This document shows positions 23,447 through 29,863 of a stretch of DNA of 33,064 nt, piece after piece. A program made the translations under genes and the position numbers. The stretch lies in NCBI GenBank assembly GCA_947461425.1, contig CANHKZ010000011.1, forward strand, positions 1-33,064, given 5' to 3'. The notes beneath the pieces are model-generated. The model saw only the letters and a program-made list of their open reading frames with translations, ran no database searches and was not told the DNA's origin. Each line of letters opens with the position of its first letter. Position 1 is the first letter of the stretch. This DNA comes from Flavobacteriaceae bacterium. Lineage in GTDB: Bacteria > Bacteroidota > Bacteroidia > Flavobacteriales > Flavobacteriaceae.

Positions 23447-24523
23447 TTAAAAAACTTCGCTAGCTTCTTTTAATTTTTCCATATTATTAACCAATTGAAG
23501 CTCATCAATCAATTTTTGAATTTTACCATTCATAACGCCATCCATGTCAAAAACATCCATACCAACTCGATGATCAGTAACTCGACCCTGTGCATAATTG
23601 TAGGTTCGGATTTTTGCTGAACGGTCACCAGAACTTACTTGGGAGGTACGTTTTGTAGCATCCTCTGCTTGCTTTTTGGCCAATTCTTGTTCGTACAAAC
23701 GAGAACGCAATACGCCAAAAGCTTTGTCTTTATTTTTATGCTGCGACTTTTGATCTTGACACTGCGCCACCAAACCTGTTGGAATGTGTGTTAAACGAAC
23801 TGCTGATTTAGTTGTGTTTACAGATTGTCCTCCAGGTCCTGACGAACAGAAGAAATCCACACGAACGTCATTCATATCAATTTGCACATCAAATTCTTCT
23901 GCTTCTGGCAGCACCATAACAGTCGCTGCTGACGTATGAACACGTCCTTGAGTTTCTGTTTGTGGCACACGTTGTACACGGTGTACTCCAGCTTCAAACT
24001 TCAAAGTACCATAAACATCTTCGCCAGTTACTTCAAAAATTACTTCTTTAAATCCTCCCGAAGATCCTTCGTTCATATCCACAACCGATGTTCTCCAACC
24101 TCTACCCTCGCAATACTTGGTGTACATTCGGAACAAATCGCCAGCAAAAATACTCGCTTCATCTCCACCAGTTCCCGCACGAACTTCCACCATCACATTT
24201 TTAGCATCTTCTGGGTCTTTGGGAATCAACATGAATTTGATTTCTTCCTCTAATTCTGGTAAACGCTCTTTTGCTTCATCTTGTTGCATTTTAGCCATTT
24301 CCACCATTTCGGCATCTGATCCATCTGCAATAATTTCGTTGGCCTCATCAATATTAGCCATCAACAAAACATACTCATCGCGTTTTTCAGCCAAAGCTTT
24401 CAAGCTTTTATATTCTTGATTCAATTGCACATAACGCTTTTGATCTGAAATTACATCGGGTTGAATAATCAAATCCGAAATCTCATCAAAACGTTGTTTT
24501 ACTATTTGAAGTCTATCTAACAT
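23447..24523 (-). CDS. prfA: Peptide chain release factor 1
   Basis: The track ORF extends to 24667, but the real start is [19 protein letters not shown] at 24523. [18 protein letters not shown] and [24 protein letters not shown] (GGQ motif). Confidence 0.96.
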
Positions 24524-24548
24524 CTTATTAATTCCTTTATTTGGAAGG

Positions 24549-24556
24549 CAAAAATA
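24549..24556 (-). promoter_or_regulatory. Putative -7 element (TATTTTTG) for prfA
   Basis: Plus-strand CAAAAATA 26 bp upstream of the prfA start. Confidence 0.35.
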
Positions 24557-24596
24557 CAAAAAAGATTGCAGATTTAATTTCCGAAGTTCAGATTTT

Positions 24597-24676
24597 TTAG
24601 GAGCTCGTTCCAGCTGTCCGCTATATCTGTATCGGCAAACCCCGCCGCTACAGGATGCTGCTACCATCTGGGCTAA
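24597..24676 (-). repeat. Dispersed intergenic repeat, copy 1
   Basis: Minus strand TTAGCCCAGATGGTAGCAGCATCCTGTAGCGGCGGGGTTTGCCGATACAGATATAGCGGACAGCTGGAACGAGCTCCTAA. It aligns end to end with 29433-29515 and contains hairpin ATC[C]TGTA-g-CGGC-GGGGTTT-GCCG-a-TACAGAT. Confidence 0.85.
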
Positions 24677-24733
24677 TTCAATTCTTTTTCATAATATTGT
24701 ATTCGTTTCAACAACACTTTTAAATTCAACAAA

Positions 24734-25207
24734 ATGCGTCAATTCTTTCTCTTTACATCAATAAGTTTGTTACTGTTTTCATGTACTACTACTTCTAAAA
24801 ACGAAAAAATAAAAGCTTCCGAATGGTTGATTGGAGAATGGAAAAACGAATCTGAAGAAGGAATAATTATTGAAACTTGGTCTAAACCAAACGACAGTAC
24901 TTTAGTTGCTGGATCTTTTTTTGTTAAAGAAAAAGACACTCTGCATATTGAAACTATTCGCTTATTTGAAAAAGACGGGGAGCTAGTTTATGAAACTACG
25001 ATTAAAGGACAAAATAACGACAAACCCATTTCTTTTCCATTAATTTCGGAAACAGAAAATGAGTTGGTTTTTGAAAATCTGAACAACGATTACCCTCAAA
25101 AAGTCAAATACTTACGTAATTCTAATTCAACCCTAACGATATTTATTACTGGCAAACAAGCAAAAAAGAATGTTTCAGAACAATTTAAAATGATTAAGCT
25201 GAAATAA
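24734..25207 (+). CDS. Lipoprotein, probable DUF6265 family
   Basis: 157 aa; lipobox LLLFSCTTT, then ASEWLIGEWKNESEEGIIIETWSKPNDSTLVAGSFFV. Confidence 0.72.
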   Translation: MRQFFLFTSISLLLFSCTTTSKNEKIKASEWLIGEWKNESEEGIIIETWSKPNDSTLVAGSFFVKEKDTLHIETIRLFEKDGELVYETTIKGQNNDKPISFPLISETENELVFENLNNDYPQKVKYLRNSNSTLTIFITGKQAKKNVSEQFKMIKLK

Positions 25208-28966: not shown

Positions 28967-29422
28967 ATGATAACAAATACAGAAAAAAACTGGGCGGCAT
29001 TAACACACGTAAGTGCTTTTGGCCAATATCTTTTCCCGTTAGGAAATTTTGTAATTCCTATAATCATATGGAGTTCCAAAAAAAATGAATCGGAGTTTAT
29101 TGACACCAACGGCAAGCAATGCATTAATTTTCAATTGAGTGTTTTTTTATATTCTTTAATTTTGGGTGCTGTTTTTATACCAACCTTTATTATTACTTTT
29201 TTGAGCCATGTCACCTTTGATGAGTTGATTCACGATAGAAATTTTATTATACGGAATTTTAATTTTGATGATAATATTGGTCTAATTACAACTGGAGCAA
29301 TTGCCATTTTCATTTTGGCAAGTTTAAAAATAGCTGAATTTTTCTTAATTATTCAAGCAGCAGTTAAAACTGCAAATGGAGAAAATTATAGTTATCCTTT
29401 CACCATAAAATTCATGAAATAA
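28967..29422 (+). CDS. DUF4870 domain-containing membrane protein
   Basis: 151 aa; EKNWAALTHVSAFGQYLFPLGNFVIPIIIW...DTNGKQCINFQLSVFLY. Confidence 0.88.
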   Translation: MITNTEKNWAALTHVSAFGQYLFPLGNFVIPIIIWSSKKNESEFIDTNGKQCINFQLSVFLYSLILGAVFIPTFIITFLSHVTFDELIHDRNFIIRNFNFDDNIGLITTGAIAIFILASLKIAEFFLIIQAAVKTANGENYSYPFTIKFMK

Positions 29423-29432
29423 CGGACTCCCC

Positions 29433-29515
29433 TAGCCCCGATTGCAATAAAAATCCTTTTTATGTAGCGTAGCGCAATAAAAAGATTGTAATGGAAAGCG
29501 GGAAATAGCTCTTAA
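29433..29515 (+). repeat. Dispersed intergenic repeat, copy 2
   Basis: TAGCCCCGATTGCAATAAAAATCCTTTTTATGTAGCGTAGCGCAATAAAAAGATTGTAATGGAAAGCGGGAAATAGCTCTTAA; hairpin AATC[C]TTTTTAT (29452-29463) / ATAAAAAGATT (29477-29487). Same termini and bulge as 24597-24676. Confidence 0.85.
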
Positions 29516-29530
29516 CAAAAAATAAAAAAA

Positions 29531-29863
29531 ATGAATATAGAAAACACAAAAGCCCAAATGCGAAAAGGCGTACTCGAGTTTTGCATACTCTCGGTTTTAA
29601 AAGAGAAGTATGCGTATACATCCGAGATACTAGATACCCTAAAAAACGCAAAATTATTGGTAGTAGAGGGAACGATTTATCCGTTATTAACTCGTTTGAA
29701 AAACGATGGTTTGTTAGACTATCGATGGGAAGAATCGACTTCTGGACCGCCAAGAAAATATTATGGTTTGACCGAGGGCGGACAAACATTTTTAAATGAA
29801 TTGAATGGCACCTGGATGGAATTATCGAATGCCGTAAACTTAATCACCAATCAAAACAAATAG
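29531..29863 (+). CDS. PadR-family transcriptional regulator
   Basis: 110 aa; MRKGVLEFCILSVLKEKYAYTSEILDTLKNAKLLVVEGTIYPLLTRLKNDGLLDYRWEESTSGPPRKYYGLTEGG. Confidence 0.95.
   Translation: MNIENTKAQMRKGVLEFCILSVLKEKYAYTSEILDTLKNAKLLVVEGTIYPLLTRLKNDGLLDYRWEESTSGPPRKYYGLTEGGQTFLNELNGTWMELSNAVNLITNQNK

Follow-up and report, generated by a model that had tools for sequence, protein, structure and literature searches.

Flavo-1 of Flavobacterium is probably an old interspersed intergenic repeat, and some copies carry nested hairpin modules

The window, a stretch of 33,064 nucleotides from a Flavobacteriaceae genome, holds two copies of a structured sequence, one of them upstream of the release factor gene prfA. 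The locus raises the question of whether such an element is a small RNA gene, a leader of the gene that follows, a hairpin at the ends of mRNAs or a repeat of the DNA itself. The approach taken here combines the Rfam model, comparison of copies within and between genomes, and the position of the copies relative to genes and predicted promoters.

Flavo-1 copies in the window

Both window copies are members of the known family Flavo-1, which is catalogued in Rfam as RF01705 with no function assigned to it there. They match the RF01705 model over its full length, above the Rfam gathering cut-off of 42 bits, and share the fold and consensus of the family (Weinberg et al. 2010, PMC2864571). A preliminary description of the window had recognized a dispersed intergenic repeat in two copies, which agrees with these matches (Table 1). 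It had not recognized that the family already has a name. Aligned copies begin with TAGCCC and end with AGCTCC, and with both ends included copy 1 extends over 24597-24684 and copy 2 over 29424-29515 (71.9 and 80.8 bits with our own covariance model, R1).

Table 1. Flavo-1 copies in the window and the genes around them
Feature	Position	Strand	Remarks
Flavo-1 copy 1	24603..24678	-	Rfam RF01705, full length 1-76, sense to prfA; cmscan 56.4 bits, E 7.1e-10
Imperfect hairpin of copy 1	24610..24671	-	basal helix, GNA/GNA internal loops, bulged C, apical stem; loop 24638-24642
3' tail of copy 1	24597..24609	-	conserved AGCTCCTAA; tail (A)GCTYC(TAA) in most copies
Flavo-1 copy 2	29430..29509	+	between two co-directional genes; cmscan 67.6 bits, E 5.9e-13
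prfA, peptide chain release factor 1	23447..24523	-	PCRF 1.9e-73, RF-1 3.4e-41; start by orthologues aligned from residue 1
Predicted prfA promoter -7 box TATTTTTGC	24548..24556	-	between Flavo-1 and prfA; pattern match
DUF6265 protein, divergent neighbour of prfA	24734..25207	+	Pfam PF19780 1.4e-18
DUF4870 protein upstream of copy 2	28967..29422	+	PF09685 1.2e-31
PadR-family regulator downstream of copy 2	29531..29863	+	PF03551 4.1e-18

No stop codon closes the prfA reading frame within copy 1 (window 24523-24667), and the frame continues to an ATG at 24667; automatic gene calling might therefore begin prfA inside Flavo-1. The claim that this block encodes no sensible protein needs qualifying to that extent, but homology and a conserved -7 box place the prfA start at 24523.

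Fold and covariation

In the family fold, GNA/GNA internal loops interrupt the outer helix, the 5' arm has a single bulged C, and the apical stem is TGTAgCGGC/GCCGaTACA. The hairpin of copy 1 matches this covarying consensus, which bears out the core fold with its bulged C as drawn in the preliminary description. Taken alone, copy 1 is no more stable than its dinucleotide shuffles (z 0.16), and the evidence for structure is therefore comparative. Among 40 aligned copies, standard pairs fill 99.2% of the paired cells, against 41-54% in slid-register controls. Double-sided changes occur at 15 of the 19 pairs, a number reached by none of 500 shuffles, so that the check on covariation proposed in the preliminary description comes out strongly positive.

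At the core pairs, read on the Rfam strand, G-U is commoner than A-C (about 34 vs 14), as would be expected if only one strand folded, in the manner of an RNA. The excess is only a hint, since some of the copies are orthologues of each other, G-U is favoured by the model, and in DNA too G-T is a milder mismatch than A-C.

The site upstream of prfA

Flavo-1 lies upstream of prfA in 30 of the 44 Flavobacterium species whose loci have enough upstream sequence, always in the sense orientation (30/30), at a distance of 71-175 nt and often of 71-76 nt. The Bacteroidetes-type promoter has a -7 box with the consensus TAnnTTTG. This motif stands at -30 to -33 from the prfA ATG, between the element and the gene, in 25/26 species; the pattern alone occurs at chance level in the window, and the evidence lies in its fixed position before prfA. 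By this prediction copy 1 precedes the prfA promoter and is not part of the prfA mRNA. Judged by the predicted box, it does not fall between the transcription start and the start codon, as an element of a 5' UTR would.

A prfA leader RNA was an attractive candidate, as all 30 copies are sense, and was dropped in view of the conserved predicted promoter between element and gene. The cis-regulatory RNA listed among the candidates of the preliminary description is likewise unsupported for copy 1, because the predicted promoter is downstream of the element. The broader proposal, that Flavo-1 is a cis-regulatory 5' UTR element of prfA and of other downstream genes, could draw on the constant orientation and frequent spacing at prfA and on copy 2, which ends 22 nt before the PadR start. 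It is scarcely probable given the promoter position, the many copies that are antisense or between convergent genes, and the DUF4870-PadR gap that holds copy 2. This gap carries Flavo-1, always sense, in about 10 of 30 relatives, and lacks it in about 20.

The gene upstream of prfA is divergent in nearly all species, and its size varies between species. Two readings fit the persistence of Flavo-1 beside prfA despite a changing neighbour: a role on the promoter side, or rearrangements that break at the repeat.

In some prfA upstream regions (L180, L183, L184, L190), palindromes of other sequence (CCCGAGGCTTCGGGA, TCCCGATAGCTATCGGGA) stand in place of parts of Flavo-1 or have inserted into them. 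Other dispersed repeats (GATTGCTTCGTTCCTCGCAATGAC; CCCGAGCCAGAAAGGCGAACTGGC) occupy the DUF4870-PadR gap at L096, L098, L102, L105, L111 and L112, where other species carry Flavo-1.

Abundance and distribution

The source genome (1.9 Mb in 123 contigs, 90% complete) has not two but at least 16 Flavo-1 matches above the cut-off, with more below it. The recurrence of similar elements in flavobacterial intergenic regions, stated in the preliminary description, is confirmed by their presence in 56 of 61 Flavobacterium genomes. Copy number in the genomes counted ranges from 0 to at least 132, the latter in a genome of 3.4 Mb, and another of 3.7 Mb has at least 85. Across the order the family is patchy (57/198 genomes). 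A search of plasmid and phage collections with one consensus-like copy gave no match.

Two subtypes, read directly, coexist in the source genome: TAGCCC(N)GAT...AGC(N')GGA and GCGTKAGGGAT...AGCCCGACC. In the second, found on contigs C20, C51, C22, C60, C54 and C24 (L014, L016-L020), the basal CCC/GGG pairs are swapped to GGG/CCC. The ends of contigs C6 and C44 (L009, L013) of this genome have near-identical flanks around slightly different copies, and are probably strain variants or an unresolved assembly overlap.

Recent transposition was considered for four near-identical copies in genome G042 and rejected: their flanks are shared too, so these are larger repeats.

Stability in place and exchange of arms

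Two species (genomes G179 and G243) were compared over 800 kb each, at a mean identity of 89.5% in aligned DNA. They have 30 and 34 matches, of which 26 each way have orthologous flanks, and Flavo-1 is at the same site in 25 of 26 in both directions. Flavo-1 is therefore not jumping now, since nearly all scoreable copies are common to species at about 90% DNA identity. The empty-site polymorphism that had been proposed as a check does appear as presence or absence between species, but at close distance the element is nearly always shared. Clean empty sites for whole Flavo-1 were not obtained between diverged named species, where intergenic sequence is too diverged; at the close distance compared they were obtained for nested modules only (see below).

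At some orthologous sites (738554/736801, 610358/643282, 424612/464174 in G179/G243) the apical hairpin is wholly different and still self-complementary. The new hairpin at 738554/736801 resembles that of further copies within these genomes, a sign that copies may exchange their hairpins. At alignable positions, identity between the two species is 91.4% for Flavo-1, 91.5% for other intergenic sequence and 71.6% for four-fold degenerate sites. This comparison is suggestive of a constraint on Flavo-1 above that on silent sites, in which case the copies would not be plain junk.

Genomic context and orientation

Nearly all Flavo-1 copies are intergenic; they are found in all orientations, some of them between convergent genes. 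Some are in operon-like gaps and must be transcribed. In gaps between tandem genes the ratio of antisense to sense copies is 19:4 in G179, 13:5 in the genus sample and 3:5 in the source genome. Flavo-1 usually falls outside the leader of the gene that follows, and about half of the spacers that face a gene have a -7 box directed toward it (14/28 and 18/33 cases, with 4 and 7 on the wrong strand).

Many copies are found 0-40 nt from a stop codon, in G179 usually antisense (19 vs 4). This placement, together with the strictly kept fold and the constraint above silent sites, would suit an inter-operon RNA hairpin, where the quasi-palindrome, on read-through, would form a hairpin from either strand and serve to mark or protect mRNA 3' ends, like the REPs of enterobacteria. 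Such a role as the whole explanation is unlikely: the antisense preference is not general, copy 1 stands between divergent genes and is the 3' UTR of neither, and there is no U-tract. For the last reason Flavo-1 does not qualify as an intrinsic terminator. At copy 1 no terminator-like site with a U-tract was found, and one weak terminator-like site overlaps the foot of copy 2 on the minus strand.

Flavo-1 was listed by Weinberg et al. (2010) as a probable, non-cis-regulatory RNA (PMC2864571), its Rfam type is that of an sRNA gene, and one review counts it among the abundant sRNA families (PMC9029176). A family of small RNA genes would also agree with the strong covariation and the G-U excess. 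It appears improbable, however, as one genome has more than 100 divergent copies, a -7 box is present inside the element in just 1 of 64 copies, and apical stems are replaced wholesale between orthologues. In the transcriptome of F. psychrophilum, moreover, Flavo-1 matches are indistinctly sense or antisense of transcribed regions, and many are outside them (PMC9723704), which makes these data equivocal on its expression as a non-coding RNA.

The preliminary description had named a REP- or MITE-like element as a candidate and proposed a search for a linked RAYT/Y1 transposase. The candidate fits in form, distribution and genome behaviour, but the RAYT/Y1 link that it predicts is absent. A REP/REPIN mobilized by a RAYT (Y1) transposase would be of similar size, hairpin shape, copy number and intergenic location. 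No Y1_Tnp match was found in the Flavo-1-rich genomes G000 (the source genome, incomplete), G004, G029, G030 and G053, and a copy lies within about 3 kb of only 2 of 30 Y1 loci, which is about the background expected from copy density. The ends of Flavo-1 have no GTAG/CGTC tag, and the copies are sedentary. A preference for the lagging strand, suggested by contigs of G179 and G243, disappeared in three complete genomes (dnaA at position 415; 150 copies, Fisher p 0.62). Mobilization by a RAYT is thus highly improbable.

A nested module of about 47 bp

In related genomes a hairpin module of about 47 bp, ACTTCAC(N)GTTCAGTGAACTTCGTTT, is found within Flavo-1, between the GATT and the G of the 5' arm, the 3' arm or both (L336-L395; G179 C1:40630, 402861, 689244 and 780438). 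It is absent from the window copies and from the source genome. The motif GATTGnA is present in both arms of Flavo-1; a single target, or recombination from one arm to the other, can account for modules on either side.

The module appears to be confined to Flavo-1. A pattern containing GATT gave 30 loci from different genomes, all in Flavo-1-like sequence as judged by eye. A pattern without GATT gave 35 copies in six genomes, of which 30 were read; again all were in Flavo-1-like sequence by eye, 29 follow GATT, and the covariance model itself finds Flavo-1 in most of these loci. Both patterns together give 60/60 module loci in Flavo-1-like sequence. A stricter pattern is present in 56/121 genomes, and its reversed control in none among those listed.

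Occupied and empty sites can be compared directly in G179 and G243. G179 has GATT[47 bp]GAAGTGG at 40657, where the orthologous site of G243 (45169) reads GATTGAAGTGG, and 689187/721184 has the same clean pattern. At 535648/567717 the module is in both arms in G243 and in neither in G179. No target duplication was found at the occupied as compared with the empty module sites of this pair. A second insert, CACGAGCGnAGCGAACTGACGAAGTAA, splits the tail of Flavo-1 at GGA^A(A)TAGCTCC in G179 (C1:689187; also L143, L340) and is lacking in the G243 orthologue.

A tentative reading, to which we give a little under an even chance, is that Flavo-1 hosts a mobile hairpin of second order: a gene-free module that enters without target duplication at GATT^G, a motif present in both arms of Flavo-1, and that resides in no other sequence than Flavo-1. 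Together with the tail modules it would form a hierarchy of nested miniature palindromes, moved by a trans-acting enzyme or by template switching. A literature search, which was not exhaustive, found no paper describing the module, and it is apparently new.

Discussion

The best explanation, with a probability of roughly 0.6, is that Flavo-1 is an old, sedentary interspersed DNA repeat of the ERIC/REP kind, intergenic and quasi-palindromic, and not an sRNA gene or a leader. The copies would have arisen by an old amplification, driven by an enzyme acting on them. Recombination between copies, or template switching from one to another, may since have turned over both arms and modules, with site-specific insertion as an alternative for the modules. 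The hairpin may be kept for a mild role between transcription units, for example in protecting mRNA 3' ends or as a DNA structure near promoters. Against a DNA repeat stand the failure to find a mobilizing enzyme or a target-site duplication, the G-U excess, the constraint, the transcribed copies in operon gaps and the uneven orientation to genes.

ERICs of enterobacteria are imperfect palindromes of about 80-130 bp, intergenic, multicopy and without coding capacity, and their copies can carry internal insertions at set points. Flavo-1 resembles them in being a multicopy intergenic imperfect palindrome that does not code, a likeness of form in another phylum. It differs in that the ends of its insert are defined, the target is a single motif, and empty sites can be compared at orthologous positions. 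With REP/REPIN elements and their RAYTs it shares dispersed hairpins between genes, but it has a larger core, a stable position, and neither the linked transposase nor the terminal tag. Like MITEs, it is small, intergenic and non-autonomous in appearance; unlike them, it lacks terminal inverted repeats other than the basal helix. No duplication of a target site was seen for whole copies, in a comparison with Flavo-1-free relatives whose intergenic sequence is too diverged to align occupied with empty sites. Rfam RF01705 catalogues an sRNA gene, whereas the present results are in keeping with an interspersed DNA repeat; the nested modules are outside the family model.

Since 2010 Flavo-1 has figured in lists of probable RNAs with no function attached. 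Should it instead be a DNA repeat kept between transcription units, many of the sRNAs annotated in Flavobacteriales would be mislabelled. Most worth following is the nested module: with its defined ends, target and empty sites, it offers a testable case for the spread and exchange of gene-free hairpins in bacterial genomes.
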